From: Albidovulum sediminicola
GTDB taxonomy: Bacteria; Pseudomonadota; Alphaproteobacteria; Rhodobacterales; Rhodobacteraceae
Length of the DNA stretch: 64,000 bases
Assembly: GCF_025751575.1 (NCBI RefSeq)
Contig: NZ_JAOWLA010000018.1
Coordinates: 1-64,000, forward strand
Reading direction: 5' to 3'
The notes beneath the pieces were generated by a model. That model saw only the letters and a program-made list of their open reading frames with translations, was not told where the DNA came from and did no database searches. Positions 16,742-33,170 of the stretch are shown here, in pieces. Position numbers and translations under genes: made by a program. Positions within the stretch are counted from its first letter, which is position 1. Every line of letters begins with the position of its first letter.

Positions 16742-16816
16742 GGCGTGGCCTTCGATATGTCCGGCCCGATTAAGGCGCACTGGCATATTGAACGCAAATG
16801 AAGTAATCGAAGTTAT

Positions 16817-16835: not shown

Positions 16836-16840
16836 CAGAC

Positions 16841-18285: not shown

Positions 18286-18299
18286 TGGAAGAATTCTCG

Positions 18300-18598
18300 G
18301 GGGGCACAGCAACAAGCTTCGGTCATATGGTGCTGCCTTGAGGCATCCCGACGCGGTCTACCGGCAGGAAACAGGACGCTGGATGAACAACCGGGTGGAG
18401 AGTTCACATCTTCCGTTCCGACGTCGGGAACGAGCCATGCTCCGCTTTCGGCGGATGCGAAGTTTGCGGAAGTTCGCCGCCGTTCACGCTTCCGTCTGCA
18501 ACCACTTCAATCAGGAATGCAGCCTCTCCAGCAGGCCCCTCTTCAAGCAGAACCGCGCCGCCGCTCTCGACGGGTGGCGCGGTCTCTACGCGGCATAA
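18300..18598 (+). mobile_element. IS6-family transposase C-terminal fragment
   Basis: The plus strand encodes VYRQETGRWMNNRVESSHL then PFRRRERAMLRFRRMRSL and later HASVCNHFNQE, followed by RAAALDGWRGLYAA and a stop. This is the conserved C-terminus of IS6-family (IS26-like) DDE transposases (RxNNRAExSHxPxRRRER). The N-terminal two thirds are missing; the region upstream is replaced by IS3 leader sequence, so it is a dead fragment. Confidence 0.78.
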
Positions 18599-18723
18599 GG
18601 GACAGCTGTCCTCGTGGAGACTGGTTCGCATTCGCCTGATGGTGTGCACGGCTCCACCTCGACGGCATCGCAACGCGCCATGCTGGTGCTGTCGTAACCC
18701 AACGGAGGGAGGGAGCCGCCCAC

Positions 18724-19185
18724 ATGGAGATTACAACGCTCGGGATCGACCTGGCCAAATCCGTGTTTCAGCTTCACGGCGTTGACGCGGATGGTGGCGT
18801 CGTCTTGCAGAAGAAGCTGCGCCGGAGCGCGGTACTCGACGTTCTCGGCAAGCTGAGCCCTTGCCTGATCGGGATGGAAGCCTGCGCCACATCACACCAT
18901 TGGGCGCGTGAGATCGCGGCACTTGGCCATGAGGTCAGGCGGATCCCGCCCGCCTTTGTAAAGCCCTATGTGAAGCGGCAGAAGAATGACGCGGCTGACG
19001 CCGCGGCGATCTGCTAGGCCGTGACACGACCAAACATGCGTTTTGTGCCGATTGCTCGGTATCGGCGCCACCTCTGTGACACGGCGAGCGGAGACGATCG
19101 ACACGCGGACCGGCGCTTGGCTCGGATCCCTGCTCGAGCGCACACCAACGCGGCTCGTGAGGGGCGAGAACTACAGGGTCGCAGC
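18724..19185 (+). pseudogene. IS110-family transposase, interrupted and internally deleted
   Basis: Opens MEITTLGIDLAKSVFQLHG with the DEDD-type residues visible (D in GIDLAK, E in GMEAC, D pair in NDAADAA). An in-frame TAG at 19015-19017 stands where a glutamate codon is expected (AICxAVTRPNMRFVPI continues after it). After about 19070 most of the gene is lost; a C-terminal-like piece, WLGSLLERTPTRLV then GENYR, follows at 19110-19185. The element cannot be active. Confidence 0.8.
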
Positions 19186-19426
19186 GGCCATCTGACCGGA
19201 GGCAAGCGGCGCCCGAAGGGCACCGCTACAAGATGCAAGGGCAGAGTTGCGTGGTGATGATCAAGCGAGACCGCTGCCGGAACACCCCGAGGTGCTGTCA
19301 GGGCGTTGCAGCTCGATCATCTGAATGGGAACCGGCTCGCGGACTTGATCAGGGCCAGCGGTCAGTCGCACCGCGCGCAAAGGCCGGAAACATGACCGCA
19401 CCCAGCGCGATGCTGCCGACGGTGGA

Positions 19427-19545
19427 ATGGCCCTGACAAACCAACCATGCCGGAACCACAGCCTGGCGTTCGAGACAAAAGCGGCGATTACCGCGATCAA
19501 AGGTAACAAGACGATGATTGAGATTTCGCAGGCGTTCGTCATCCG
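19427..19545 (+). mobile_element. IS3-family orfA N-terminal remnant
   Basis: The translation MALTNQPCRNHSLAFETKA followed by AITAIKGNKTMIEISQAFVI matches the start of OrfA proteins of the type RRNHSPAFKAKVALAAIKGDKTxxELSQxFDVHPxQI, then degrades. Only the DNA-binding start remains. The preceding 19186-19426 and following 19546-19667 contain no other recognisable gene. Confidence 0.65.
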
Positions 19546-19667
19546 TGGGACTGTTCAACGCTCCAGGGTCAGGCGGCCCGCTTGTGTCGAAGATCCTCGG
19601 CGGCACTTGGCTCCGCGACGGGCAGCGCGAAGCCTTCGATCCCGCTGTCTGGCTGAGGTGAAGTCCT

Positions 19668-20348
19668 TCAGTCCGGGCCGGTCAGGAGCGCCGCCAGATC
19701 GTCAAGGCCGACGACATGGCAATAAATCATGTTGATGATCTCAAGCTCCCGCTCATGCAGCGCATCGGTGGCCGCCGCGCAGGCATCGTGGACGACGAGG
19801 ACGTCGAAGCTTTCATCGGCGAGCGAACGAACCGTGGAACTGACGCATTGATCGGTGAAGATGCCTGCGACGATCACATGTGTGATGCCGATATTGCGCA
19901 GCATGAGCCGCAGGTTGGTGCCGGTCAGGGCGCTGTCTGTCGTCTTGGTGACCACGATCTCGTCCCCGCGCGGGGCAAGCGCGTCGACGATCTGGCTGTC
20001 GACCCTGTCCTTCGGCAGCAGGAGGTAGTTGAACCCCGGCCTCTTCTGGCTGAGGGACCGGTCGCGGCCGTCCTCGGTCTGGCAGGCGATGCGTGCATAC
20101 ATCACCTCGATCCCTTCAGCGCGCGCCCAGTCGATCAGCCGGGCGCAGTTGGGGATCACGGTCCCGGTCATGCGGTCGAAGAATGGCTGCCAGCGGCGCT
20201 GCTCTGCGGGGTCGTCCTTGGGCTCAAGGTAGGTATTCTGGATGTCGATCACCAGCACCGCTGTGTGGCGGCGGCTCAAGACGATGTCCTCGGGATCTTC
20301 CGCCAATTCGTAATAGAAGCTGCGAAAGGCTTTCTTCCAGTCACTCAT
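19668..20348 (-). CDS. Isochorismatase-family cysteine hydrolase
   Basis: A 226-residue cysteine hydrolase with the catalytic triad D35 (VIDIQNTY), K135 (VVTKTTDSAL) and C168 (FTDQCVSSTVRSL). The family cleaves amides, carbamoyl groups or enol ethers, for example N-carbamoylsarcosine, biuret or nicotinamide. It is the last gene of the 14-gene microcompartment operon, ten bases after the kinase gene. Its part in amino-alcohol breakdown is not known; removing an N-acyl or N-carbamoyl group from the imported amine is one option. Confidence 0.85.
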   Translation of the reverse strand: MSDWKKAFRSFYYELAEDPEDIVLSRRHTAVLVIDIQNTYLEPKDDPAEQRRWQPFFDRMTGTVIPNCARLIDWARAEGIEVMYARIACQTEDGRDRSLSQKRPGFNYLLLPKDRVDSQIVDALAPRGDEIVVTKTTDSALTGTNLRLMLRNIGITHVIVAGIFTDQCVSSTVRSLADESFDVLVVHDACAAATDALHERELEIINMIYCHVVGLDDLAALLTGPD

Positions 20349-20358
20349 CCCCTGCTCC

Positions 20359-21372
20359 TCATGCCAGGGCGCGCATACGCTCCAAATAGGCCTGTCCCAA
20401 CCGCGCCGTTGTGGCGGCGAAGCCGGAGGCCAGCGCCTGCGGTTCCGGCGCCTCGATATGGCTGCCGATCCAGGCCAGAAGCGCCATGCGCCGCAGCATG
20501 ACGAAGGTGTCGATCTCGACCTCTTCGGCCGCGCTCAGCGGGCGGACGGAGCGGTATCCCCTGACCCAGGCCGCCTTCAGGCCCGGAATGCGGGGGTCAT
20601 CCTCGATAAAGCTGATCGCCGCGGCGAAATCGTAAAGGAACCAACCCCAGCCGCAGTCGTCGAAGTCGATGAGCCGCGTGCCCTTGGCGTCGATCAGGAG
20701 GTTGGCCAGCCGCATGTCGGCATGGATCAAGTTGAAACGGTCCGGGGCCTTGCCGAAGGCGGCAAGGCGCGCGCGCACCGTCCGCTCCACCTCTTCCAGG
20801 ACACCGGCGACCTCGGGCGTCACTTCGGGCGCGTCGCGCCAGTTGCCCCAGGTCGGGTTCGGGCCAAAGACCGTTTTCTCATCCCAGGTCAGGCGCTGAA
20901 AATCATCGGGTTTTTCCCAGCCAAGAACATGGTCATGGCAGCGCGCGGCGATCGCCCCAAGCTCCTCATACCCGGCGCTCATGTCGGCGCTTTCGTCGGG
21001 GGCGGACCCTTCGACGAAATGGAACAGCACCATGTAGCGCGGGGCCGCAAGCCCTTTCCCATGCGCCTGCTGGATCGGGTCGCCGTTGCGGCCGACATAG
21101 ACACCGGGGGTGATCACCACGCCCGCGCCGTCCAGCGCCTCCAACCATCCCAGCTCGCACTCGATTGCCCGGTGGGTGTGGTAATTTTCTCGGTGGATGC
21201 GCAGGACCGCGCGATACCCGCCCGGCGCCTCGACCAGATAGGTCGCGTTCTCGGACACGTTGATGAGCCGCGCCGTCGCGCCATCCGGCACGTCCCAAAG
21301 CGGCAGGGAGGATTGGGCCAGATCGTTCAGATGGCCCAGCATTTCTTCCAGAGGCATATCGGAACCGGACAT
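20359..21372 (-). CDS. APH-family kinase, probable 1-amino-2-propanol kinase
   Basis: A 337-residue phosphotransferase of the aminoglycoside/choline kinase fold with catalytic loop HADMRLANLL (H217, D219, N224) and the metal-binding DFDD (236-239). In the mycobacterial RMM microcompartment a kinase of this family phosphorylates (S)-1-amino-2-propanol, preparing it for elimination by a PLP enzyme. The same enzyme set (kinase, SDR, class III PLP enzyme, acylating ALDH, shell proteins) is in this operon, which supports that role over antibiotic resistance or homoserine kinase. The substrate could also be ethanolamine or another amino alcohol. Confidence 0.82.
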   Translation of the reverse strand: MSGSDMPLEEMLGHLNDLAQSSLPLWDVPDGATARLINVSENATYLVEAPGGYRAVLRIHRENYHTHRAIECELGWLEALDGAGVVITPGVYVGRNGDPIQQAHGKGLAAPRYMVLFHFVEGSAPDESADMSAGYEELGAIAARCHDHVLGWEKPDDFQRLTWDEKTVFGPNPTWGNWRDAPEVTPEVAGVLEEVERTVRARLAAFGKAPDRFNLIHADMRLANLLIDAKGTRLIDFDDCGWGWFLYDFAAAISFIEDDPRIPGLKAAWVRGYRSVRPLSAAEEVEIDTFVMLRRMALLAWIGSHIEAPEPQALASGFAATTARLGQAYLERMRALA

Positions 21373-21390
21373 CGCGTCCTCCTTCGACAG

Positions 21391-22161
21391 TCAGATTTCG
21401 GCGATAGCTTCCAGCGATTCCGGGATGATCTGGCCGCCATCGACAACGATCTGCTGGCCGGTGATATAGCCCGCCTCATCCGAGGCGAAGAAAAGGGCGG
21501 CGTTGCCGATATCCTCGACCGCGCCAAGCCGCTTCAGCGGGATCGAGGCGGCCATCGTGGCCAGGTAGTCCTCCCCCAGATCCTGAAGCCCCTCCGTGTA
21601 GATGTTCCCCGGCATGACGGCATTGATGGTGGTGTTGTAGCGCGCCAGTTCCATCGCGGCGGTCTTGAGGAAGCCAAGCTGCCCCGCCTTCGACGCGCCG
21701 TAATGCGACCAGCCCGGAAAGCCCGTGATCGGCCCGGTGATCGAAGAAGTCAGCACCACACGGCCCTTGCCAGCCTTTTCGAAATGCGGGATCGCCGCCT
21801 TGACCGACAGGAAGGCCGACCGCAGGTTGGTGGCCATCACCTGGTCCCATTCGCCGGGGTCCATGTCGACGATCTTTGTCTGTGGAAAGGCGCCCGCGTT
21901 GGCGCACATGACATGCAGCCCGCCCTGCGCCGCCGCCGTACTATCGACCATGCCCTTGACCGATGACCAGTCGGACACGTCGCAGACCTCATAGCGCACG
22001 TCGCCCTCGATCTCTGCTGCCGCCTTCTTCAGATCATCCTCGTTCCGCGCGGCGATCGTGACCTTGGCCCCTTGGCGGGCGAAGACGGTGGCAATGCCGC
22101 GGCCGATCCCCTTGGACCCACCTGTGACGATGACACTTTTGCCTTTCAGTGACGTAAGCAT
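21391..22161 (-). CDS. SDR oxidoreductase, probable 1-amino-2-propanol dehydrogenase
   Basis: A 256-residue classical short-chain dehydrogenase: cofactor motif GGSKGIG (14-20), NAG at 88-90, catalytic S139/S140, Y154 and K158 (YGASK), and the C-terminal TGQQIVVDGGQ. The mycobacterial RMM locus has an SDR that interconverts aminoacetone and 1-amino-2-propanol; operon context argues for that here. No encapsulation helix is visible at either end. The start is the ATG at 22161. Confidence 0.87.
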   Translation of the reverse strand: MLTSLKGKSVIVTGGSKGIGRGIATVFARQGAKVTIAARNEDDLKKAAAEIEGDVRYEVCDVSDWSSVKGMVDSTAAAQGGLHVMCANAGAFPQTKIVDMDPGEWDQVMATNLRSAFLSVKAAIPHFEKAGKGRVVLTSSITGPITGFPGWSHYGASKAGQLGFLKTAAMELARYNTTINAVMPGNIYTEGLQDLGEDYLATMAASIPLKRLGAVEDIGNAALFFASDEAGYITGQQIVVDGGQIIPESLEAIAEI

Positions 22162-22191
22162 GATGCGATCTCCCTGCGAGTTTCTTGTTTT

Positions 22192-23004
22192 TCAGTCCTG
22201 CGCGACCCGTGCGTCCCTGTTGACCCGCACCAGCCAGGCCACCGCGAAGGCGGCAAGGATCAGGACGAAGGACCCGACCACCGACATGACGCCCAGCGTC
22301 GGCACCAACGGTGAATAGCCCGACACCATCTTGGCATAGAGCCATTCGGGCAGGGTGGAATCCGCGCCCGTGGTGAAAAGTGACAGCGGGAAGTTCCCCC
22401 AGCTGAGAAGGAAGGCGAAAAGTCCGGCGGAAACCAGCCCCGGCATCAGCAGGGGCAGCGTGATCTCACGCAGGATTGTGACGGTGTTGGCGCCCATGTC
22501 ACGCGCGGCCTCTTCCAGCGCAGGGTCGAAACTGTAGGCGCGGATGGCGACGATCAGCGTGGCAATTGGGGCAATCCAGACAAGGTGGGCGACGACGGCC
22601 GTCTTCCAGGTCGGGATAATGCCGAGAGAGTTGAACCACATCAGAAGGGCAAGGCCCAAAACCGTCTGCGGGAAGAAGATCGGCAGCAGGATCAGCTTCT
22701 GGAACGTGGTGCGGAACCGCCAGTGATAACGCGCGAAGGCCAGCGCGCCGAAGAAGGCCACCACCACCGAGATCACGGTCACCAGCACCGCGACCGAAAG
22801 CGACGTCGTCAGAAGCTCGCTGACCGTGCTGCTGGCCATCGCCTCGCCATACCACTTTGTCGAATAACGCTTGATCGGAAAGCTAAGGTATCGCGCCTGC
22901 GAGACCGAGGCAAAGCCGACCGAGACCAGCGGCAGGTAAAGGAACGCGATGACGATGACGCCGTAGACGTACAGCACGATCCGGGTCGAGCGGCTGGTGG
23001 ACAT
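22192..23004 (-). CDS. ABC transporter permease, PotC-like
   Basis: A 270-residue permease starting MSTSRSTRIVLYVYGVIVIAF, with six hydrophobic segments and the EAA loop EEAARDMGANTVTILREITLPLLMPG at about residues 175-200. It shares one base with the stop of the partner permease gene (TGATG), which fixes the start; longer frames run through that gene. It belongs to the spermidine/putrescine class and should import a small cation such as an amino alcohol for the microcompartment. Confidence 0.88.
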   Translation of the reverse strand: MSTSRSTRIVLYVYGVIVIAFLYLPLVSVGFASVSQARYLSFPIKRYSTKWYGEAMASSTVSELLTTSLSVAVLVTVISVVVAFFGALAFARYHWRFRTTFQKLILLPIFFPQTVLGLALLMWFNSLGIIPTWKTAVVAHLVWIAPIATLIVAIRAYSFDPALEEAARDMGANTVTILREITLPLLMPGLVSAGLFAFLLSWGNFPLSLFTTGADSTLPEWLYAKMVSGYSPLVPTLGVMSVVGSFVLILAAFAVAWLVRVNRDARVAQD

Positions 23005-23858
23005 CAGCGTTTCCTCCCCATGATCGCATCCAGATCGACCTTGGACACGCCAAAAAGCGCAAGCCCCCCGATGATGACGATCAGGATCATAGAAAGGGCG
23101 GAGCCAAGCGGCCAGTTCTGCCCGAAGGTGAAGGCCGTCTCGACATCGTCGGCAATCGCGATGACCGCCTGACCGCCAAGGATCTTGGATTCCGCCAGTG
23201 CCCCCGCCGCCAGAACGAAGCTCAGGAGCGATCCGACCACGATGCCCGGCGCCGCCAGCGGCACCTCGATCTGCCAAAGCACCTGCCAGCGCGAGGCGCC
23301 AAGATCGTAGGCCGCCTGCCGCGTGTCGTCGGGCACCATGGAAATGCCCTGTGCCAGCGGAAAGAGCATGAAGGGCAGGTAGACGTAGACCAGGCCGAAG
23401 ATGATGATCGGAACGGAGTAGAGCGGGCCTTCGAAGCCGACCCCGGTCCATGAGCGCAGATGCCCCTCGATCAGCCCACCCTTCATCAGCGTCAGCACCC
23501 AGCCGAAGAGTCGGATGTTTTCCGAGACGAAAAGGCTCATCACCACCGCGACGGTCAGGATCAGGCTGAAGCGGCCAAAGACCTTCGCCATCGCATAGGC
23601 GAGCGGCCAGCAGAGCACGACAAGGATCACGGTCGCGCAAAGCGCCATGCCCAGCGACCAGAGGAGCGACTTGTAGTAACCTTGCGAGAAGAACAGCGAA
23701 TAGGCCGAGAAATCCGGCATGTTCGCCAGCGAGAAGACCTTGGGCGGCATGATCGAGAACAGCGCCACCACGACGAGCGGCGCCAGGAACGACAACAGCA
23801 GGACCAGCGCCAGCGGCAGCGCGGAAAGAAACCCCAGTTTCCCGTCGAGTCTGTTCAT
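23004..23858 (-). CDS. ABC transporter permease, PotB-like
   Basis: A 284-residue permease with an N-terminal helix (LSALPLALVLLLSFLAPLVVVALF), the PotB-type PLAYAMAK segment and the EAA loop RQAAYDLGASRWQVLWQIEVPLAAPG near residues 185-210. It overlaps the ATPase gene by four bases and the PotC-like gene by one. Confidence 0.89.
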   Translation of the reverse strand: MNRLDGKLGFLSALPLALVLLLSFLAPLVVVALFSIMPPKVFSLANMPDFSAYSLFFSQGYYKSLLWSLGMALCATVILVVLCWPLAYAMAKVFGRFSLILTVAVVMSLFVSENIRLFGWVLTLMKGGLIEGHLRSWTGVGFEGPLYSVPIIIFGLVYVYLPFMLFPLAQGISMVPDDTRQAAYDLGASRWQVLWQIEVPLAAPGIVVGSLLSFVLAAGALAESKILGGQAVIAIADDVETAFTFGQNWPLGSALSMILIVIIGGLALFGVSKVDLDAIMGRKR

Positions 23859-24928
23859 GCCGCCTCGCCGATGAAATGGGTGTTCGCGGCGTTGAAACCC
23901 AGCGTGACCTTCTGTCCCTCGGCTGCGCTCAGACGTTCCTCGCGCAGCTTCTCGACCGTCACCATGCCGTTTTCGGTCTTGATCTCATACTGGATGCGGG
24001 AGCCGAGCGCGTATTCGCCGTGGACCACGCCGCTCAGCGTGAAGTCGAAGCTGCCCCCGCTGTCCGCGAGGCGCAGATATTCGGGACGCACCATCAACAG
24101 GCCGTCATGCCCCGGCGCCAGGTCCGACAGCGCGACCCCCGGCCGGACCGACAGCGTCGGGCTTTCGATCCGGCCATCCGCGCCGGCACGCAGCGGGAAC
24201 AGGTTCACCTCGCCCATGAACTCGGCGACGAAGCGGCTGACCGGGGCGCTATAGATCTGGTCGGCGACGGCGATCTGTTCGAACTGACCGTCTTTCATGA
24301 TGGCGATCCGGTCGGACATCACCATCGCCTCTTCCAGCGAATGGGTGATGTAGACGAAGGTCTTGCCGGTGCGGGTGTGCAGGTCCTTCAGCTCTTTCTC
24401 AAGCGTCTTGCGCAGCCGGTAGTCGAGCGCCGAGAGCGGTTCGTCGAAGAACAGGATCTCCGGATCGAAGGCAAGCGCGCGCGCCAGCGCCACGCGCTGC
24501 CGTTCGCCGCCCGAACACTGGGAGATGCGCTTGTCATAGTATCTGCGCGGCAGCCGCAGAAGGTCGAGCAACTCTTCCGCCCTCGCGCGCCGCTTGGCCG
24601 GCGCCTCCTTGCGGATCTTCATCGGGAACTCGATGTTCTGCCCGACCGTCATATGCGGAAAAAGCGCCAGCGACTGAAACACCATGCACGTCGGGCGCAG
24701 GTTCGCGGGCGTCTGGTCAATTCGCTTGTCGCGCAGCCAGATCTCGCCCTCTGTCACCTCGTCCATGCCGACGAGCAGGCGGATCATCGTCGACTTGCCG
24801 CTGCCGGACGGCCCCACGATCGTGAAGAACTCGCCCTCGGCGATGTCGAGGTCGATGCCCTTCAGCGCCGTGAAGTTACCAAACCGCTTGACGACGCCGC
24901 GAAGGCGCAGAAGTCCCGGAGAGTCCAT
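23855..24928 (-). CDS. ABC transporter ATP-binding protein, PotA-like
   Basis: About 357 residues: ATPase domain with Walker A GPSGSGKST, VFQSLALFPHMTVGQNI, signature CSGGERQRVALARAL, Walker B ILFFDEPLSALD, and switch ITHSLEEAM, followed by a C-terminal TOBE domain (about 270-355) typical of PotA. The first signature residue is Cys-Ser-Gly-Gly rather than LSGG, a minor oddity. Start chosen at MDSPGLLRLR (24928) behind AAGG; an ATG at 24946 is possible. It lies 73 bases from the binding-protein gene. Confidence 0.9.
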   Translation of the reverse strand: MDSPGLLRLRGVVKRFGNFTALKGIDLDIAEGEFFTIVGPSGSGKSTMIRLLVGMDEVTEGEIWLRDKRIDQTPANLRPTCMVFQSLALFPHMTVGQNIEFPMKIRKEAPAKRRARAEELLDLLRLPRRYYDKRISQCSGGERQRVALARALAFDPEILFFDEPLSALDYRLRKTLEKELKDLHTRTGKTFVYITHSLEEAMVMSDRIAIMKDGQFEQIAVADQIYSAPVSRFVAEFMGEVNLFPLRAGADGRIESPTLSVRPGVALSDLAPGHDGLLMVRPEYLRLADSGGSFDFTLSGVVHGEYALGSRIQYEIKTENGMVTVEKLREERLSAAEGQKVTLGFNAANTHFIGEAA

Positions 24929-25001
24929 GCCCCAACCTTGCTGCATTCATTCAATTTCAGGCACCTCCGGGGCAGGTTTCGCCGCCCCGGAGCCGGCAGT
25001 G

Positions 25002-26144
25002 TCACGACCGGCGTTCTTGCGTGTAGATCTCGATCAGCGCGTCATAAGAGGCGACGACATCGTAATCGAGCGACCGCGCCATCTCTTCTTCCAGGCTGTC
25101 AATCTGGATCGCGTCCAGTTCTTCCTCGTCGAACTGGGCCATGACCTCGGGATTGCCCATCTGGGCGACCGGGTTGTAGGTGCCCTCGGTGAAGGCCACC
25201 GCCTTGGCAACCTCGGGCGCCTGAACGAATTCGAGGAAGTCCTCGGCCAGATCGCTCGGGTTCGGGTTGTTGACAGCCGAGGTCAGCTCGATCCAGACGC
25301 AACCGCCCTTGCCATCGACCGGCCCGCTTCTCGGCGTGATCGCGCGCACGTTCGTCGCGCCGTCGTAGCGCGCCGGAGAGGCGGTGTAGGTGCCGCCGGT
25401 GAAATAGGCGTCAATCTCGCCGTTGATCAGCGCGGTGTTCATGGCCACCAGATCGTCGGTCAAAAGCTTCGCGCCGCCGAAGATAGTCTTGGCCGTCTCG
25501 CGGAACTTGTCGACATCGCCCCCCTCGATCGGCGCGAAGGGATTGAGGCCGGCGGTCAGGCACATGTGGATGACGTTCCAGTTGTCATAGGTCAGAACGC
25601 CGAAACGGCCCTTCATCGCCGGGTCGAGGAAGAGGTTCCAGCCCTGCTCCTCTGCCGTCTCGCGGCTGATCACATCGGTGTTCACAACGAAGCTGAAGGG
25701 GCCATAGCGCTGCGGCATACCGATCAGGTTACCGTCATCGGCGAAGGCCAGCGGATAGGCCGGGCTCGCGAATTCCGGCAGCATCTTATCGAAATAGGGC
25801 AGGAACCGCTCTTTGTTCAGCGGCTTGATCAGGCCCTCGGGATAGAGCTGGTCGCGCGCCCAGGGCTGGTTGACGTTGATCAGGTCCCAGACCGAGGTTT
25901 CGCCCGCCCGCAGCTTGTTGATCATGTCCGGGTCGGAGGTGCCGCTTTCGGCGCGCACCGTCGCATCGGGATGTGCCGACCGGAAGGGGCCAAGCACCTG
26001 GTCGGAATTGTAGCCTTCCCAGCAAAGGATATTCATCCCGTCGGTGCGGCCCGCGAAGGCGGGGCCAAGCGGTCCGGCCCCGGCAAGCCCTGCAAGCGCG
26101 GCGGTCCGCCCAATGAATTGCCGTCTGGATAGTCCTTTTCTCAT
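25002..26144 (-). CDS. ABC transporter substrate-binding protein, PotD-like
   Basis: A 380-residue periplasmic protein with a twin-arginine signal (SRRQFIGRTAALAGLAG) and the PotD/PotF-type mature start NILCWEGYNSDQVLGPFRSAHP. Acidic and aromatic residues are plentiful as in polyamine-binding proteins; TGGTYTASPARYDG lies in the binding domain. It is placed inside the microcompartment operon between shell and transport genes. Mycobacterial RMM loci use an amino-acid-type permease instead, so this is a different uptake solution for, presumably, a cationic amine. Confidence 0.87.
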   Translation of the reverse strand: MRKGLSRRQFIGRTAALAGLAGAGPLGPAFAGRTDGMNILCWEGYNSDQVLGPFRSAHPDATVRAESGTSDPDMINKLRAGETSVWDLINVNQPWARDQLYPEGLIKPLNKERFLPYFDKMLPEFASPAYPLAFADDGNLIGMPQRYGPFSFVVNTDVISRETAEEQGWNLFLDPAMKGRFGVLTYDNWNVIHMCLTAGLNPFAPIEGGDVDKFRETAKTIFGGAKLLTDDLVAMNTALINGEIDAYFTGGTYTASPARYDGATNVRAITPRSGPVDGKGGCVWIELTSAVNNPNPSDLAEDFLEFVQAPEVAKAVAFTEGTYNPVAQMGNPEVMAQFDEEELDAIQIDSLEEEMARSLDYDVVASYDALIEIYTQERRS

Positions 26145-26197
26145 TTGTTTGCCTCCTGTTGGTTGGTTTGGGGTTCCCCCCTTCTTTTGCGCCCCGT

Positions 26198-26827
26198 TCA
26201 GGCGCGGCGGCCTTTGATACTTTCGAGAACTTCGGTGATCCGGTCGCGGGCCAGCTTCATGTCGGCCAGCGTGCCAGACATAAAGATGCGGCCCGTCGCG
26301 CCCATCATCTGCACATCGTTCAACGTGCAGTTCGGCGCGGCCTTCTCCGCCTCATTCGCCGCGACGCAGGCGAAGAGGGCAGGCGTCATCTCATAGATCA
26401 GAAGCGCCACGCCCGGCACCAGGATCGATCCGTCGCGTGAGCGGTTGAGGATGATGGCATGCTGGTCCGACAGGTCCTCGATGATGTCGTGATAGAGGAC
26501 CTTGGGGGCGAGCTGATCCTCGGGCTTGGCGCCGATCCCCTTCAGGATCGCATTTCCCGCCGCCGTCAGGTCGGCCATGTCGTCGGCATGAAGCTCCAAG
26601 AGGCCGAACTGGCGTTCGGTGAAGAGGATGCCCGGCTCCATGTCTGGCGCCGCCTTCAGCGCCAGATCGGTGATCCGGTGAATGCTCAGCGCGGGCGCGA
26701 CTTCGATGATCAGCGAGTTCTGCCCGCGAAACGGAGGATAGGCCCGCGCGCGCGACGGCGACGACAGGTAGGCCGCGAACTGCGGTTGCAGATCCTCGAT
26801 CGGCAAATAGACGCGAAGCTCGGTCAT
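26198..26827 (-). CDS. Microcompartment shell protein, tandem BMC domain (BMC-T), first
   Basis: A 209-residue protein with two BMC folds: residues about 1-100 (ELRVYLPIEDLQPQFAAYL start, ILFTERQFGLLELHADD) and about 110-205 (HAIILNRSRDGSILVPGVALLIYEMTP, then MMGATGRIFMSGT). Trimers of such proteins form pseudohexameric facets, often with a gated pore. Start at MTELRVYL (26827); the longer frame crosses the BMC-H gene. It is a paralogue of the BMC-T at 27849-28460, with which it shares the QLQPQ-type opening and the GATGR/GANGR loop. Confidence 0.9.
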   Translation of the reverse strand: MTELRVYLPIEDLQPQFAAYLSSPSRARAYPPFRGQNSLIIEVAPALSIHRITDLALKAAPDMEPGILFTERQFGLLELHADDMADLTAAGNAILKGIGAKPEDQLAPKVLYHDIIEDLSDQHAIILNRSRDGSILVPGVALLIYEMTPALFACVAANEAEKAAPNCTLNDVQMMGATGRIFMSGTLADMKLARDRITEVLESIKGRRA

Positions 26828-26861
26828 ACCCTCGTCACCCTTTCCTGCGCGCGGACGGTCA

Positions 26862-27146
26862 TCACTTCGCGGCAGCGGCCGAGAAATGCTTGCCAAGATC
26901 GGCATGGGGGCGCGGAATGACATGCACCGCCGTCACCTCGCCGACCTGACTGGCGGCTTCTGCGCCAGCCTCGGTCGCGGCCTTGACCGCACCCACGTCG
27001 CCACGCACGACGACGGAGACCAGCCCGCCGCCCACCTCGTTGCGGGCCACGATCTCGACATTTGCCGCCTTGACCATCGCATCCGCGGCCGACAGCGCGG
27101 GCACATAGCCCTTTGTTTCAATCATTCCGATAGCCAGATTCGCCAT
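26862..27146 (-). CDS. Microcompartment shell protein, single BMC domain (BMC-H)
   Basis: A 94-residue hexamer-forming shell protein. The classical opening [26 protein letters not shown] and the middle [27 protein letters not shown] are those of PduA/EutM/CcmK-type proteins, and the end [13 protein letters not shown] is typical. It would form the bulk of the facets with the usual central pore. Start at [10 protein letters not shown] (27146). It is the only BMC-H in the locus. Confidence 0.96.
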
Positions 27147-27157
27147 GATGTGTTCCT

Positions 27158-27418
27158 TCATGCTTTGCTTTTGCTGGTGTTGTCTTCGTCGATGGAGCCG
27201 ATGATCAGGGCATCGACCGGCGCGGTCTTGCCCGTGAAGAAGGCGGCCGCCACCGATCCTTGCGTGATCAGGACCGGCTCGCCGGTGTTGCAGCCGAGCG
27301 GGTCAAAGGCGATCAGCTTCGCGCCGCTTTCCGTCTCAACTTCCAGCAGCGCCCCTGCGGGCAGGGAGGAGACGCGGCGCGACGACCATATCTTGCCTAT
27401 GACGCGTCCTTGAATCAT
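27158..27418 (-). CDS. Microcompartment vertex protein (BMC-P, EutN/CcmL family)
   Basis: An 86-residue pentamer-forming protein beginning [28 protein letters not shown], with [22 protein letters not shown]-like GxGxGE and GSVA signature segments of the EutN/CcmL family. It closes the twelve vertices of the shell. Four-base overlap with the PduM/EutQ-like gene, 11 bases from the BMC-H gene. Confidence 0.94.
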
Positions 27419-27852
27419 CTGTCTGCCCTTTCGATCCTGATGCCCCTGCGCCGCGCCTCGTCCCTGGCAAGCGGCGTCAGCCGGTTTTGCGGGCCAAGCC
27501 GCAAGGAGCGCACCCCGTTACCCAGGGCCGCGATGTCGCGTTCCGTGATAAGCGCCTTGTCGATCGTGCCCGGTGGCGTACGGGCCGGGCCTGTGACGAT
27601 CGGCGCAGTGTATGCGGCCCCGACCCTCGCCCCCTCTTCCAGATCGAAGCGATGATCTCCCGCCATCACCCGCGCCGCGAATTCGGGCGAGGCTGCGCGG
27701 CGCAGAAGATCCTGCGCGAAACGGTTCAGCTCGGCACTCGACCCGATGCGGATCCGTTCCGTCTGCGGCGCGGCGGGGGCCGCATCGGCGCGGAGCGCAG
27801 CAATTTCCTCGCGCAAGATGGCACGAATCTCGTCCCGAAGGGCTGACATCAC
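27415..27852 (-). CDS. PduM/EutQ-like microcompartment-associated protein
   Basis: A 145-residue protein whose function I do not know. It has three parts: an N-terminal amphipathic helix (MSALRDEIRAILREEIAALR) followed by an Ala/Pro linker, resembling encapsulation peptides; a middle segment; and a C-terminal motif ITERDIAALGNGVRSLRLG then NRLTPLARDEARRRGIRI. That last pattern (IT..DI...L...TP.AR..A...GI) resembles the end of PduM and the start of EutQ. Position between pentamer and trimer shell genes supports a structural or lumen-organising role. Overlaps both neighbours by four bases. Confidence 0.6.
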   Translation of the reverse strand: MMSALRDEIRAILREEIAALRADAAPAAPQTERIRIGSSAELNRFAQDLLRRAASPEFAARVMAGDHRFDLEEGARVGAAYTAPIVTGPARTPPGTIDKALITERDIAALGNGVRSLRLGPQNRLTPLARDEARRRGIRIERADR

Positions 27853-28460
27853 AACGCCCCTGCATCGCGCAACGCGCCTTCGGCGGCGTTTCTGGCATTG
27901 CGGACATCGGCCTCCGTCCCGGCAAGATAAAGTCGCCCGTTGGCGCCAATCATCCGCATGTCGATCAGCTTCACGTCAGCTTCCTTCTCCGCCTCGTTGC
28001 AGGCGAGGATGGCGTAGGCAGCCGACTGGCATTCCAGCAGGTAGATGCTGTCCCCACCCAGCACCATCGACCCCAGCTTGTTGCGGTTCATCAGGAAGGC
28101 GTGCTGGTCGCTGACATTGGTCACGAGCTTCGAGGCGAGGATCTTCGGCGGCGCCACGTCATCGGCCGTCTTGTCCAGCGCCGAAAGGATCGCCGCCGCA
28201 CCCGCCTGCACCTCGGCGGTGGAGCGGGAGTGGAACTGCAAGGTGCCGAACTGACGTTCGACGACCAGAAGCCCGGCGCGCACATCGGCGCTTTTCAGCA
28301 CGATGTCGGTCAGCGCCTCGACATCAAGGCCAGGCGCGATTTCCACGATCTGTGCGGCCATGCGCAGCCGGGGCAGTGTGCCGCGCATCCAGGTGGAGAT
28401 ATAGGCCAGCGTCTGCGGCTGAAGCTGGTCGATGAAGATGGAGGCCCTGAGGTCGGTCAT
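27849..28460 (-). CDS. Microcompartment shell protein, tandem BMC domain (BMC-T), second
   Basis: A 203-residue tandem-domain shell protein: LRASIFIDQLQPQTLAYISTWM at the start, LLVVERQFGTLQFHSRS ending the first fold, HAFLMNRNKLGSMVLGGDSIYLLECQSAAYA and MIGANGRLYLAGT in the second. Two non-identical BMC-T proteins in one small locus suggest two kinds of pore, for example one for small substrates and one for cofactors. It overlaps both neighbours by four bases. Confidence 0.92.
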   Translation of the reverse strand: MTDLRASIFIDQLQPQTLAYISTWMRGTLPRLRMAAQIVEIAPGLDVEALTDIVLKSADVRAGLLVVERQFGTLQFHSRSTAEVQAGAAAILSALDKTADDVAPPKILASKLVTNVSDQHAFLMNRNKLGSMVLGGDSIYLLECQSAAYAILACNEAEKEADVKLIDMRMIGANGRLYLAGTEADVRNARNAAEGALRDAGAL

Positions 28461-29989
28461 TTCCCGGCCCCCTGAAGGCTGCGAAGTTCTTCGAGGATCA
28501 GCTGCCGCAACGTATCACGGTCGAAACTCTCACGCGCGGGCGGCGGCGCGGCGGCAGGGGCACGCGCGGCGGCCCGGTCCGTCGATACCGCGCTAAGGTC
28601 GATGCCGGAAAGGTCCGCCGGCACATCCTTGCCGTAGGCGATCCGGGTCCATTGCACCAGATGCTGCGGGCCGACATTCTCCCCCACCGAGGACCGCCCG
28701 GCAAAGCCGGTACCGATGGTGAAAGAGGGCGGCAGATAGGTCGCGAAACCCGCCGCGCCCTGAGAGCAGGGCGCATTCACCACCACGCGGTAGACCGGCA
28801 TTTCCTGTGAGAAGCGGACCAGCCTTGCGGTATCGTCGCCGTGGAAGGCCGCCGAATGCCCCGCGCCGCGCCGCGCCGTGTGCTTGGCGAAGGTCAGCGC
28901 CTGCTGGAAATCCACGGCCGAGGTCAGCGTCAGCACCGGGCAAAGCTTTTCGCGGAAGAGAAGATCGTCCTGCCCCGGCGTTGCCACCACGGGCACCAGG
29001 ATCCGGGCCGAGGGGCTGACGCGGATGCCCGCGCGTTCGGCGATCCAGGCAGCACTCTTGCCGATGGACTCGAGGTTCAGGCTGCCCTTGCCGAACAGGT
29101 AATCGCGCAGCCGGTTCGTGTCCGCCTCATTGCAGACATGCGCGCCTGCGCTGCGCAGCGCGCGTTCCATGTTGCCACGATTGCTGTCCAGCGTCAGGAC
29201 GACGCTTTCATTGGTGCAAAGGATGGAATTGTCGAAACTCTTGCTCTCGACCAGACAGCGCGCGGCGGCATCGACCCCGGCGGTCGGATCGACATATGCG
29301 ACCGCATTCCCCGGCCCGACGCCAAGCGCCGGATTGCCCGAGGAATAGGCCGCGCGCACCATTGCGGTTCCGCCGGTGGCGATGATGACGTTGATCCGGT
29401 CGGAGGACATGATGTCCTGCACCAGCGGGATCGACGGTTCCTCGACGCACTGGATCAGGCCCGACGGCGCCCCCGCCGCCTCGGCCGCCTCGGCCAGGTG
29501 GTGCGCCGCGGCCACCGATACCGCCTTCGCGACGGGGTGCGGGCTGATGACGATGGCATTGCGGCTCAGGATCGCCAGCATCGCCTTGTAGTAGACGGTC
29601 GCGACCGGGTTCGTCGCGGGGGCCAGCGCAAAGACCACGCCCGCCGGTTTTGGGAGTTCGACGATCTTGCGCGCCGCGTCGATGCGCGGGGTGACCAGAT
29701 CCAGGTCGCGGTAGTGATCGAGAAGCGCGTGGGTGCAAAGCTCGTTCTTGATCTTCTTGTGCTCGACGACGCCAAAGCCGGTCTCGGTCACGGCGAGGTC
29801 GGCGAAATGGCCCGCCTTCTCATAGCCCGCGCGCGCGACCGCCTCGGCAATCGCCAGCACCGCATCGCGGCTGAAGCTGCGGTAGTAGCGTGCCGCCCAG
29901 GCCGCGCGGCCGACCTTCATCCGGGCGCTGGACAGCGCGCGGTCGGGGACCGATAGACGGGGCGCATCGAATGTCGTGTGTTCGCTCAT
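28457..29989 (-). CDS. Acylating aldehyde dehydrogenase with C-terminal encapsulation helix
   Basis: A 510-residue PduP/EutE-class enzyme oxidising an aldehyde (propionaldehyde or acetaldehyde) to acyl-CoA with NAD. Catalytic cysteine C258 in SFDNSILCTNESVV; LAPATNPVATVYYKAM and GVGPGNAVAYVD are family landmarks. After the enzyme core comes an Ala/Pro-rich linker (about 470-487) and a terminal amphipathic helix, RDTLRQLILEELRSLQG, the pattern of an encapsulation peptide that docks cargo inside the shell. In PduP the signal is N-terminal; C-terminal placement is known for aldehyde dehydrogenases of other BMC types. Confidence 0.9.
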   Translation of the reverse strand: MSEHTTFDAPRLSVPDRALSSARMKVGRAAWAARYYRSFSRDAVLAIAEAVARAGYEKAGHFADLAVTETGFGVVEHKKIKNELCTHALLDHYRDLDLVTPRIDAARKIVELPKPAGVVFALAPATNPVATVYYKAMLAILSRNAIVISPHPVAKAVSVAAAHHLAEAAEAAGAPSGLIQCVEEPSIPLVQDIMSSDRINVIIATGGTAMVRAAYSSGNPALGVGPGNAVAYVDPTAGVDAAARCLVESKSFDNSILCTNESVVLTLDSNRGNMERALRSAGAHVCNEADTNRLRDYLFGKGSLNLESIGKSAAWIAERAGIRVSPSARILVPVVATPGQDDLLFREKLCPVLTLTSAVDFQQALTFAKHTARRGAGHSAAFHGDDTARLVRFSQEMPVYRVVVNAPCSQGAAGFATYLPPSFTIGTGFAGRSSVGENVGPQHLVQWTRIAYGKDVPADLSGIDLSAVSTDRAAARAPAAAPPPARESFDRDTLRQLILEELRSLQGAGK

Positions 29990-31266
29990 GCTGCCCGCCT
30001 GCCGGATTTGAGAAGCTGCCTTGCGCGGGGCATTGCAGAGTCGAAGCGGTCGAGGATCTCCTGGCAGAGGTCGACGTCAAGGACCACGCCCGGCTTGAAC
30101 TGCAACACGCGCTTGTCGAGAGAGGAGAAGATCGCCCAGACCCCGTTTTCGTAAAGTGCCCGCGACACCGCAACCGCGCCTTCGGGGTGGTCGAATTCGA
30201 GCCCCAGCACCACGCCCCGCTGCCGCACGCCCACGAAGATATCGCTGTGGCGCTTCATCATCTCGGCCATGCCCCGCGCGAAGAATTCCGCCACGAAATG
30301 CACGTTCGATATGACTTCGGGCCGTTGCAGCATCTCGATGACATGGTGGCCGACGACGCAGCCAAGCTCGGCGCCCCCGGAGGTGGAGATATGGGCCGCG
30401 CCGTCCTCGATCAGCCAGCCGCCACATTCCTCGTTCACCATGCAGGCGCTGATCGGGTAAATCCCGCCGCCCAGGCCCTTGCCGCAGACGAAGATGTCGG
30501 GCTGCAGGCCATAGCCCTGCCAGCCCCACATGATGCCGGTGCGCATCAGGCCGGTCTGCACCTCATCCGCGATGAACTTGGTGCCGTATTTGCGGCAGAG
30601 GTCCTGACAGGCCTTCAAATAACCGTCGCGCGGCATCGGGAAACCGTAGGTCGCGGGGATCGTCTCGACGATGAAGGCGGCGACGTCACCCTTTCTCAGC
30701 ACCTCTTCCAGCGCGCCTTCATCGTTGAAGGGGACATGGATGAATTCATCGGGGCGGTCGGCGAGAAAGATCTTCGAAAACCGCTCATCCCCGGTGGCGA
30801 CCGAAAGGCCGGAATGGCCGTGATAGCCCTTTATGATAGAGACGATCTTGCGCCTTTTGGTGGCGTAACGCGCTGTTTTCAGGGCTATTTCGACCGCCTC
30901 CGCGCCGCCGGATCCGAAGATCGCGTATTTCATGTGCGGCGCGGTCTTGACCAGCTTCTCCGCAAAGGCGGCGCGTGCGACGGACGGGAACCAGTGGTTG
31001 CCCATGTCGAAATAATCGAGGCCGGATTTCAGCACCTCGACCAGTTCGGGATGCCTGTGGCCAAAATTGTAGGTCCCGCCGTTCAGGTGCAGGTCAATCA
31101 GCCGTTTGCCCGACATGTCGTAGAGGAAGTACCCCTCACGACGGTCGATCACCATCGGCGTGCCGGCATCCCTCCAGAAGCTGACCTTTCCGGGATTCCA
31201 GTACTCTGCCGCCTTGGCGAGAAGTTCCTCCTTCGAGTCAAAGGCGAAGTATCCGTAGTTGAACAC
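29986..31266 (-). CDS. Class III aminotransferase-fold PLP enzyme, probable amino-alcohol phosphate phospho-lyase
   Basis: A 426-residue fold-type I PLP enzyme with Schiff-base lysine K263 (CGKGLGGG), cofactor aspartate D234 (ADEVQTG) and phosphate-binding GSGGAEAVEIA (118-128). In RMM loci a class III member is believed to eliminate phosphate and ammonia from phosphorylated 1-amino-2-propanol, giving propionaldehyde; ethanolamine-phosphate phospho-lyase is a close precedent. The GTG start at 31266 follows GGGAG. It is the first gene of the operon and faces the DeoR regulator. Confidence 0.85.
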   Translation of the reverse strand: MFNYGYFAFDSKEELLAKAAEYWNPGKVSFWRDAGTPMVIDRREGYFLYDMSGKRLIDLHLNGGTYNFGHRHPELVEVLKSGLDYFDMGNHWFPSVARAAFAEKLVKTAPHMKYAIFGSGGAEAVEIALKTARYATKRRKIVSIIKGYHGHSGLSVATGDERFSKIFLADRPDEFIHVPFNDEGALEEVLRKGDVAAFIVETIPATYGFPMPRDGYLKACQDLCRKYGTKFIADEVQTGLMRTGIMWGWQGYGLQPDIFVCGKGLGGGIYPISACMVNEECGGWLIEDGAAHISTSGGAELGCVVGHHVIEMLQRPEVISNVHFVAEFFARGMAEMMKRHSDIFVGVRQRGVVLGLEFDHPEGAVAVSRALYENGVWAIFSSLDKRVLQFKPGVVLDVDLCQEILDRFDSAMPRARQLLKSGRRAA

Positions 31267-31307
31267 CTGATTCTCCCGTCATTCCACATAAATCCTAGCA
31301 TCTAACG

Positions 31308-31368
31308 TTTGACTCGCAACATATTTTGACTGACTACGGGCATTTTTTTGTGGGATTTCTGCCCGTAG
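31308..31368. promoter_or_regulatory. Operator candidates in the BMC/DeoR divergent region
   Basis: The 145-base gap holds a direct repeat TTTGACT (31308-31314 and 31325-31331, 17 bases apart) and a perfect inverted repeat CTACGGGCA (31334-31342) and TGCCCGTAG (31360-31368) around an AT-rich 17-base core. DeoR-family repressors commonly bind such repeats near their own promoter, so this probably controls the microcompartment operon and the regulator together. Confidence 0.6.
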
Positions 31369-31411
31369 CCTCATAAGGTAGGGTCAGAGAGAATCCGGCA
31401 CAGGACCCGAC

Positions 31412-32170
31412 ATGTCGAAGAAGTCGATCCGCCACGACCACATCCTGAGCGCGCTCGAGATCGACCCCTCGATCCGTGTCAGCGCGCTTTGCGAACAGCT
31501 CGGCGTCTCGGCGGAGACGATCCGCCGCGATCTGGCGGAACTTGACGAGACCGGGCGGATCAAGCGGACCTATGGCGGGGCGGTGCGCACGAAGGCGTTC
31601 GAGCCCGCGCTGTCCGAACGCTCGAAGCTGCACATCGAGGCGCGTGAAAAGATTGCGCAACTGGCGCTGTCGCGGATCGGGGACACCCACAGCCTGTTCA
31701 TCGGGGGGGGGGCGACCACGCTGCATTTCGCGCGGGCCCTGCGCGCAATCGACCGTCCGCTGACGGTCCTGACGGCCGCCTTCAGCATAGCAACCGAACT
31801 GTCCATGAACCCTTTGATCCAGGTGATGTCGCTGCCCGGCATCGTCGAGCCGAAGGAGGGGTTGGTCCACGGTGCGGAAACGCTGAAATGCATCGGACAG
31901 TTCCGCACGCCGATCGCCGTGGTGGGCGCGTCCGCGATCGACGAAGACGGCGTGAGCGAGGCACTGCTTCACGCCGCGCAGGTCTACTCGGCGATGATCA
32001 ACCATGCTGATGAGACACTGATCGTCGCCGACAGCTCGAAGCTCGGGAACCGCTCGCTTCAGCAGATCGTCGAATGGAACCGCAACGTCACATTGATCAC
32101 CGACGCGCCGCCGCCGCCTCGGCTTGCCAGCGCCATCCGGCAACGCGGCGGCACTGTGATCTGGAGCTGA
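31412..32170 (+). CDS. DeoR-family transcriptional regulator
   Basis: A 252-residue regulator with the DeoR helix-turn-helix (VSALCEQLGVSAETIRRDLAELDETGRIKRTYGGAV, about 19-54) and the DeoR C-terminal sensor domain (IGGGATTLHFARAL; VVGASAIDEDGVSEA; IVADSSKLG). The sensor usually binds a phosphorylated metabolite; a phosphorylated amino alcohol made by the kinase of the divergent operon would fit. It sits in divergent orientation to the microcompartment operon and is its likely repressor. Confidence 0.88.
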   Translation: MSKKSIRHDHILSALEIDPSIRVSALCEQLGVSAETIRRDLAELDETGRIKRTYGGAVRTKAFEPALSERSKLHIEAREKIAQLALSRIGDTHSLFIGGGATTLHFARALRAIDRPLTVLTAAFSIATELSMNPLIQVMSLPGIVEPKEGLVHGAETLKCIGQFRTPIAVVGASAIDEDGVSEALLHAAQVYSAMINHADETLIVADSSKLGNRSLQQIVEWNRNVTLITDAPPPPRLASAIRQRGGTVIWS

Positions 32171-32384
32171 GGGGGAGCTGTCAGGTCGAGGGGGACCTGC
32201 CTTGCACCACGATTACCTGCGCATTCGCATGAGCTGGCAAATCCCGGCAGCGAATCCGGCCAGCTGCCCCGATGAAGCCGGGAAACTCCAGCCCCGGGCG
32301 ATCCAAGGATGGGTCTCGCTTCAACCAACCGACGGATTCTCCCAAAGGCTGGAGGGAAGCCGGGACGCGGGTCACATCGCGCCC

Positions 32385-32620
32385 GCAGAGCCGACACCGA
32401 ACGCCCACATTCCCGCCTCGGCTGGCAGACCCCCGCCGCCTTCGCCCAGACCTTCATACCGCGACGGGGGCTGACGCTCCGCAACCCGTAAAGCGCCGCG
32501 CCAGCCCCGTTGAACAACCCGCCCGAACAGGCAAAACTCAAACCCGGAGTCTCGCTCACGCTGGATAAAAGCCGGGGGCGACGTCACTTGGAATAAGTCG
32601 GCGGCGCATGATAGCGGGCA
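32385..32620 (+). mobile_element. IS3-type integrase-core transposase 3' remnant
   Basis: The plus strand encodes ADTERPHSRLGWQTPAAFAQ then TFIPRRGLTLRNP before a stop; the RPHSxLGxxTPAxFA pattern is the end of the IS3-family (IS407-like) transposase catalytic domain. A following frame reads AKLKPGVSLTLDKSRG, the usual tail region of the same elements. Nothing else of the element remains. The gap 32171-32384 after the DeoR gene shows no gene. The fragment marks the right boundary of the microcompartment module. Confidence 0.7.
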
Positions 32621-32668
32621 GGATATCTCCAAATATGTGTACGCCTCATGAGCCTGTCTCCTTCCTTT

Positions 32669-33169
32669 TCAGTCTGCCGTGGCGCGCGCAAGGTAGTCGG
32701 AAACCATGTTGCCAAAACTCTGTTCGACGGCGAATTCGAACCCATCTGCCACTCGACATAGAAGCGCCTTGAGGCCGAAAACCTCGGTGAACGTCACCGC
32801 CGTATCGCCGAAGGTCGCCGGATGCAGGTCAAGCGGGCAGGCAATTGCCATGATCTGCGCCGCATCTGGACCGGTGACGTCAAAGAATGTCAGCGTATCC
32901 GATATCCGGACGATACTAATGTCAGCCGGTGCTGCGTCCGGTTTCAGCGCCGCCGACAGCGGTTCCTCACGCTCGATCTCCGCCCGCAGGATCCAGTGGT
33001 TGCGGCCAATGTGATAGAGGCTGTCGCGGTCTGAAACCGACTTCCGGTTGGGTGCATCTGGAAAGGCCGGCAGAATCCGGCCGGCCCATTGCCTGAGAGC
33101 GTCGGGGTCACCCTTCAGATCGAAAAGCGCCGAGATTTCTTGGCGATGTATTTTCACATCATATCTCAT
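32669..33169 (-). CDS. soxG: Sarcosine oxidase gamma subunit
   Basis: A 166-residue SoxG. Recognisable segments: DPDALRQWAGRILPAFPDAPN, GRNHWILRAE and VRISDTLTFFDVTGPDAAQIMAIACPLDLHP. It is a structural subunit of heterotetrameric sarcosine oxidase, which demethylates sarcosine to glycine, giving 5,10-methylene-THF and hydrogen peroxide. Last gene of soxBDAG, one base after the soxA stop. Confidence 0.88.
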   Translation of the reverse strand: MRYDVKIHRQEISALFDLKGDPDALRQWAGRILPAFPDAPNRKSVSDRDSLYHIGRNHWILRAEIEREEPLSAALKPDAAPADISIVRISDTLTFFDVTGPDAAQIMAIACPLDLHPATFGDTAVTFTEVFGLKALLCRVADGFEFAVEQSFGNMVSDYLARATAD

Positions 33170-33170
33170 C

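Follow-up and report, generated by a model that had tools for sequence, protein, structure and literature searches.

A probable RMM2-type bacterial microcompartment operon in Albidovulum sediminicola and its candidate role in amino-alcohol breakdown

The 64,000-nucleotide stretch of Albidovulum sediminicola DNA analysed here (contig NZ_JAOWLA010000018.1, positions 1 to 64,000; hereafter the window) contains an operon for a bacterial microcompartment (BMC). Open reading frames (ORFs) and domain searches place 14 genes on the minus strand between 19668 and 31266, and a DeoR-family regulator gene diverges from them on the plus strand (Table 1). The shell consists of one BMC-H, two BMC-T, and one BMC-P protein, and the associated enzymes are an aminoglycoside phosphotransferase (APH)-fold kinase, a short-chain dehydrogenase/reductase (SDR), a class III pyridoxal phosphate (PLP) enzyme, an acylating-type aldehyde dehydrogenase (AldDH), and a cysteine hydrolase. 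A PotABCD-like importer and a 145-residue protein, u145, complete the operon. All 14 genes and the regulator lie where an initial annotation, made from the sequence alone, had put them. Its shell set is recovered in full by Pfam and phmmer, and its DeoR regulator, Pot-type importer, and cysteine hydrolase are present by Pfam domains, with the PotC match below its cut-off and the PotD match weak. Pfam names 12 of the 14 operon genes; the unnamed ones are u145 and the first BMC-T, and the latter was recognized by phmmer through its match to MSM0271. The start sites of this BMC-T gene and of the second, PotC-like permease gene were revised to those listed. No match to PF00936 at E 0.001 or better occurs outside the operon in the 4.13 Mb genome.

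Table 1. Genes of the microcompartment locus, with positions in the window and the matches on which each name is based.
Feature	Positions	Strand	Evidence
Isochorismatase-family cysteine hydrolase, putative amide/ureido hydrolase	19668-20348	-	PF00857 E 2.2e-34
APH-fold kinase, probable (S)-1-amino-2-propanol kinase	20359-21372	-	6ef6 E 1.8e-81
SDR, probable 1-amino-2-propanol dehydrogenase	21391-22161	-	6ci8 E 6.5e-91; 6ci9 E 5.6e-90
ABC permease, PotC-like	22192-23004	-	PF00528; PotC model 119 bits (below cut-off of 326)
ABC permease, PotB-like position	23004-23858	-	PF00528 E 1.1e-8
ABC ATPase with TOBE_2 domain, PotA-like	23855-24946	-	PF00005 and PF08402
PotD-like extracellular solute-binding protein, possible Tat signal	25002-26144	-	PF13343 and PF01547; weak PotD (27.6 bits) and weak Tat match
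BMC-T shell protein, MSM0271-like	26198-26827	-	5suh E 3.8e-81, 274.7 bits
BMC-H shell protein	26862-27161	-	PF00936 E 9.3e-27
BMC-P vertex protein	27158-27418	-	PF03319 E 4.8e-19
u145, conserved 145-residue orphan, N-terminal encapsulation-like helix	27415-27852	-	No Pfam match; true start probably ATG at 27849
BMC-T shell protein, MSM0275-like	27849-28460	-	5l39 E 3.3e-74, 252 bits
Acylating-type AldDH, C-terminal encapsulation-like motif	28457-29989	-	PF00171
Class III PLP enzyme, candidate amino-alcohol-phosphate phospho-lyase	29986-31266	-	PF00202
DeoR-family regulator, divergent	31412-32170	+	PF00455 E 1.5e-36 and PF08220

RMM organelles were named from actinobacteria, and what is known of their biochemistry rests on enzymes of Mycobacterium smegmatis and Rhodococcus. 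The shell of the window is of the RMM type. In a phmmer search of the PDB, the MSM0275-like BMC-T leaves the next chain at 152 bits, and the MSM0271-like BMC-T leaves the other RMM BMC-T at 147 bits and the best remaining chain at 141 bits; the assignment is made by score margin, at least 100 bits for both BMC-T proteins. The best PDB matches of the kinase and the SDR are 6ef6 (44.2% identity over 303 aligned residues, the last 10-residue block excluded) and 6ci8 (58.2% identity over 256 residues), which carry generic PDB names and which we take to be the aminopropanol kinase and the dehydrogenase of the M. smegmatis RMM. Kinase residues D219, N224, and D236 are kept in all 66 rows and the catalytic Ser, Tyr, and Lys of the SDR in all 65, where rows, here and below, are the window and those fetched loci that fall within length and identity limits. 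Together with the shell, these matches bear out the RMM-type identity proposed in the initial annotation, and the amino-alcohol kinase and propionaldehyde-type route that it predicted are well supported by homology. The best PDB match of the hydrolase, the biuret-hydrolase-type cysteine hydrolase 6xix, reaches just 60 bits, and biuret hydrolases, RutB, and N-carbamoylsarcosine amidohydrolase are all among its matches; of its catalytic residues, D35 and C168 are kept in all 44 rows and K135 in 43, the remaining row having X.

All four enzyme kinds given for RMM loci in the available text of Axen et al. (2014), namely APH phosphotransferase, SDR, aminotransferase-fold enzyme, and AldDH, are present in the window locus. 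The same text assigns a GntR regulator and an amino-acid permease to RMM1; the window has DeoR and an ABC importer, and membership of RMM1 is not claimed for it. RMM2 is described there as having diol dehydratase genes and as being without the hydrolases. The window does not fit this description: it has a hydrolase, and its 14 operon genes, to which the search was confined, include none for a diol dehydratase. The available part of Sutter et al. (2021; PMC8217296) reports two RMM2 outliers, from Epsilonproteobacteria and Candidatus Marinimicrobia, each adjoining a phage integrase with pfam13356 and pfam00589. Among the relatives fetched here, the locus of a Sulfurimonas metagenome-assembled genome (MAG; L103) has a single gene with PF13356 and PF00589 at 391-1620, and that of a Neomarinimicrobiota MAG (L094) has PF00589 only, at 77-814, in a gene truncated by the contig end. 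Both carry the shell, PLP enzyme, AldDH, kinase, SDR, and permeases of the window, and neither has a match to its hydrolase or DeoR. We infer that these are the two outlier records of Sutter et al. themselves. Since they fit the integrase-flanked outliers, the window is filed under RMM2 in the 2021 sense, a type to which it very probably belongs and with which it would agree gene by gene.

The class III PLP enzyme keeps Lys263 and Asp234 in all 84 rows. The site of the usual carboxylate-binding Arg, which is Arg in PatA and in ArgD-like transaminases, is occupied by Q389; Gln is found there in 83 of the 84 rows and Arg in none. The corresponding enzyme of the Rhodococcus jostii pRHL2 locus (L037) has Lys at this site, matches the phospholyases 5g4i (E 2.6e-94) and 6tor (E 9e-88), and is only 25% identical to that of the window. 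In a maximum-likelihood tree of 37 rows, the window enzyme falls in a clade of its own (100/100) that includes the Neomarinimicrobiota one, and the R. jostii enzyme pairs with 5g4i (100/99); the tree is midpoint-rooted, its references are copied segments with long branches, and it includes 5g4i and not 6tor. By these residues and this tree, the RMM2 PLP enzyme seems to be no transaminase and to come from a separate lineage; lyase chemistry is the best guess for it. Three Lys-type class III paralogues are encoded elsewhere in the genome, on contigs C5, C22, and C55 (L138, L140, and L137), and the C5 and C22 copies adjoin APH-kinase matches.

Cys258 of AldDH is kept in all 77 rows, and the best NCBIfam models for this enzyme are AdhE and the acetylating acetaldehyde dehydrogenase, each below its cut-off. 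The motif [LI]Rx(1-2)[LI][LI]xEE[LIMF], devised after the AldDH and u145 sequences had been viewed, occurs in 48 of 76 AldDH and 52 of 77 u145 proteins, and in none of the 838 proteins summed over the other 13 families. It lies at residue 494 of AldDH and is absent from the PLP enzyme. The predicted model of u145 shows a long N-terminal helix with good local (mean pLDDT 84.7) and low global (pTM 0.38) confidence, and a fold search against the PDB gave no match at E 0.001. AldDH and u145 are likely tagged cargo, given this putative encapsulation motif. The hydrophobic moment was dropped as evidence of encapsulation in favour of the shared motif: the AldDH tail (0.53) lies below the 95% control value of 0.62 and is not significant, and the u145 helix (0.72) lies barely below the 99% control value of 0.722.

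Loci of this kind are neither rare nor peculiar to the window organism. Among 385 genomes of the class, its own included, 11 have a relative of the BMC-T at 27849-28460, and a close relative of the PLP enzyme (E 1e-90 or better) is found in 8, all of them among these 11. A scan of genome contigs gave 361 relatives, of which the best 80, selected for similarity to the window, were fetched and the other 281 not included. Going by the titles of their records, 56 of the 80 belong to the Alphaproteobacteria and 12 to the Gammaproteobacteria, 8 are unspecified Proteobacteria, and the last four are a Neomarinimicrobiota, a Sulfurimonas, a Comamonas, and a marine bacterium without placement. RMM2 has already been published for Paracoccus yeei (PMC8156839, available text), which, with the alphaproteobacterial and gammaproteobacterial relatives, shows that such loci extend beyond the window organism. 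The Aut cluster is placed in Actinobacteria, Firmicutes, and Proteobacteria in the available part of Ravcheev and Thiele (2019). A literature search for descriptions of such loci in the bacterial group of the window found none, and none on Roseovarius was among the matches listed. In a plasmid search, the BMC-T matched five records, with more than 45% identity in R. jostii alone.

Gene content was counted in the 55 fetched loci of at least 18 kb, with identity thresholds set by the authors and the 25 shorter loci excluded; some loci are the same contig reached twice (L026 and L110, whose PLP enzymes are identical, and L027 and L117, whose contigs are equally long). Both BMC-T proteins, BMC-H, BMC-P, AldDH, and the PLP enzyme are each present in all 55. 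They are followed by u145 (54), the kinase (51), the SDR (50), the permeases (49 and 48), the ATPase (48), the binding protein (47), the hydrolase (33), and DeoR (27). Three loci of a single genus (L030, L031, and L036, from genomes G357, G279, and G185) have an RMM-like shell and AldDH, but the PLP enzyme, kinase, and SDR have no match in them. Of the three, L030 alone was scanned with Pfam; it has a TauD-family dioxygenase and a TRAP transporter (DctP, DctM) on the flanks of its shell genes, and this type of locus may be a different organelle of a sulfonate or ester type.

The ends of the locus are the real boundaries of a unit. A single blastn alignment to Defluviimonas denitrificans (L038), of 12,549 bp and 90.4% identity, covers positions 19636-32170. 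In a search of higher sensitivity, each of the 80 fetched loci matches within the cassette, no such match starts before 19621 or ends beyond 32170, and only one locus (L083) matches elsewhere in the window, at 43 kb. Since the ends are shared and the flanks are not, the cassette is probably self-contained and mobile or horizontally moved. Its composition does not mark it as foreign, the GC content being 0.638 inside, 0.638 on the left, and 0.609 on the right. The insertion sequence debris that had been noted on both sides holds for the left flank, where remnants of IS240- and IS110-type transposases lie at 18263-19017 (the IS110 match slightly below its cut-off). On the right, it is not clear: the three ORFs scanned have no transposase domain, and only short pieces of 32171-33170 recur, at four other sites of the genome. 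Immediately past the cassette, at 32669-36146, lie genes for sarcosine-oxidase-like subunits (GCV_T, SO_alpha_A3, and Fer2_4 domains), which the fetched loci do not share. An inverted repeat with 9-base arms at 31334-31368, between the PLP-enzyme gene and DeoR, was considered as an operator and rejected, as 33 other loci all lack this repeat, though a gap of about 145 bp is frequent among them.

Around the constant core of shell, AldDH, and PLP enzyme, the feeder genes for import, hydrolysis, and phosphorylation vary. The commonest set, found in the window and most long loci, is the kinase, the SDR, and the Pot-like importer, often with the hydrolase. An APH kinase is combined with an amino-acid permease and an alpha/beta hydrolase in L062. 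Sugar-type ABC importer parts, a PF01425 amidase, and choline-kinase-family genes are found in L071 and L084, two loci outside the kinase count, L071 having another isochorismatase-family gene as well; its APH homologue, 36% identical, is under the identity threshold, and the locus was therefore counted as kinase-free. A PF01425 amidase also occurs among the feeders of L063, and a Liv-type importer in L085. Relatives of the PLP enzyme also occur in fetched stretches without a shell: in L120, one adjoins an APH-kinase homologue with 31% identity to the window kinase, and in L118, one adjoins a type I phosphodiesterase, whose counterpart in L119 is annotated as 'alkaline phosphatase family'. Such neighbours fit an enzyme fed with a phosphorylated amino alcohol, as either could supply it. 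On the rhizobial plasmids of L118 (4089-14148) and L119 (2092-11269), the shell-less operon comprises DeoR, an oligopeptide-type ABC importer, the phosphodiesterase-type gene, and the PLP enzyme, which is nested among the RMM2 ones in the tree; DUF1045 and PhnF lie near the L118 operon. The type of organelle is very probably known, and what may be new is the PLP-enzyme branch outside the phospholyase clade together with the exchangeable feeders around a fixed core.

The reading favoured here, with rather better than even confidence, is that the locus encodes a catalogue-RMM2-type microcompartment which would break down an amino alcohol via its phosphate ester, most likely 1-amino-2-propanol or aminoacetone. 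The PotABCD-like importer would take up either the amino alcohol itself or one of its amide or ureido derivatives, from which the cysteine hydrolase could release the amine where needed. The SDR may interconvert aminoacetone and 1-amino-2-propanol, in whichever direction, and the kinase is expected to form 1-amino-2-propanol phosphate in the cytosol, which would then enter the shell. Here the class III PLP enzyme could eliminate ammonia and phosphate to give propionaldehyde, and the presumably encapsulated AldDH would turn this into propionyl-CoA before it can leak out. A phosphorylated intermediate is the probable signal for DeoR. The conserved SDR argues for aminopropanol or aminoacetone, while the amide-type hydrolase and the separate clade of the PLP enzyme leave room for another feeder compound, and a substrate other than aminopropanol, as the initial annotation suggested, is possible.

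Several observations weigh against this route. The hydrolase has no role in a plain aminopropanol pathway, and its presence in just 33 of the 55 long loci has been noted. The window kinase finds no match in three loci (L063, L085, and L112), and the few genes scanned there (two in L112) include no other kinase; ORF calls in these loci were confused by antisense frames, and the PLP enzyme of L112 matches in two pieces. P. yeei, the sole alphaproteobacterial RMM2 named in print in the available sources, is described as growing on 1,2-propanediol (PMC8156839), which the proposed route leaves unexplained. The PLP enzyme stands outside the proven phospholyase clade of 5g4i, and its top NCBIfam scores are to transaminase models (ArgD and others), all below cut-off. 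The loss of Arg, taken as proof of lyase chemistry, was weakened by a within-genome control, as 13 other class III enzymes differ at the aligned site: three have Arg and another three Lys, single enzymes have Thr, Leu, or Cys, and the last four are gapped.

An unlikely alternative, and the best placed of three, is the same chemistry with ethanolamine, or several amino alcohols, as the main substrate. Ethanolamine phosphate would be converted to acetaldehyde and then to acetyl-CoA, a B12-independent alternative to EutBC. The acetaldehyde-type models nearest to AldDH, the choline/ethanolamine-kinase-family genes in some feeder variants, and an ethanolamine permease annotated near the R. jostii locus are consistent with it. 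EutB has no match in the genome of the window (EutC was not searched), so that the EutBC pair by which EUT BMCs are recognized lacks its EutB part, and EutB is missing from all eight genomes, that of the window among them, that carry a locus with this type of PLP enzyme. However, only 27 of the 385 genomes have EutB, so that chance alone would predict its absence from the 11 shell-positive ones; this absence, which means little, was rejected as evidence about ethanolamine. Moreover, the SDR would be useless for ethanolamine, yet most long loci keep it, and the three Lys-type phospholyase-like paralogues of the genome, two of them beside APH-kinase matches, could already handle ethanolamine phosphate.

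The class III enzyme could also be a true aminotransferase that turns aminopropanol or aminoacetone into lactaldehyde or methylglyoxal, a possibility discussed, in the text available, both by Ravcheev and Thiele (2019) in their Aut scenarios and by Axen et al. (2014). This improbable reading draws on the ArgD and other transaminase models against which the enzyme scores best. Gln in place of the PatA- and ArgD-like Arg is at odds with it, a kinase ahead of a transaminase has no obvious use, and the relatives outside BMC loci are paired with phosphorylating or phosphodiester-cleaving enzymes. Least probable of the three is an organelle in which the hydrolase is the true entry enzyme and the substrate a different nitrogen compound, such as an N-carbamoyl or N-acyl amino alcohol: the hydrolase triad is kept, its PDB matches include carbamoyl- and biuret-cleaving enzymes, and a PF01425 amidase, a second isochorismatase-family gene, or an alpha/beta hydrolase occurs in other feeders, but the PDB matches are weak (60 bits or less), and 22 of the 55 loci show no hydrolase in their fetched stretch at the threshold used.

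Beyond the phosphate-ester route preferred for the window, it is tentatively suggested that proteobacterial RMM2 may be a general machine for converting phospho-amino alcohols to acyl-CoA. Its fixed core would be the shell, the tagged AldDH, the tagged orphan, and the PLP lyase, its feeders (importer, amide hydrolase, and kinase or phosphodiesterase) would be exchangeable, and its signature enzyme would belong to a second family of amino-alcohol-phosphate phospholyases with an evolutionary origin of its own. A full operon in culturable members of the Paracoccaceae, with a PLP enzyme of an uncharacterised branch, allows the phosphorylate-then-eliminate route to be tested for its generality and for having evolved twice. 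It could also explain the use of amino alcohols by proteobacteria without EutB.

Besides RMM2 of 2021, three known systems are close to the window locus. The RMM1 of M. smegmatis and Rhodococcus erythropolis (Aut/AAU) provides, through its M. smegmatis proteins, the best PDB matches for the shell, kinase, and SDR; in the sources available, it has a GntR regulator and an amino-acid permease, whereas the window has DeoR and a binding-protein-dependent importer. The pRHL2 locus of R. jostii RHA1 shares the gene order AldDH, BMC-T, 145-residue protein, BMC-P, BMC-H, and BMC-T, and its fetched stretch also contains phosphotransferase and isochorismatase-family genes. In contrast to the window, its PLP enzyme belongs to the proven phospholyase clade, its 145-residue protein is not matched by u145 at E 1e-6, and at 15433-20922 it carries the cassette of BMC-T, 145-residue protein, BMC-P, and BMC-H twice, with the same protein accessions, the two copies enclosing a BMC-T gene and a class III enzyme of the phospholyase clade. 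The ethanolamine-phosphate and amino-alcohol phospholyases 5g4i and 6tor have the same class III PLP fold and have the transaminase Arg replaced at the same site, by Lys in their case and by Gln in the window, whose PLP enzyme differs from 5g4i in forming a separate clade on a long stem.

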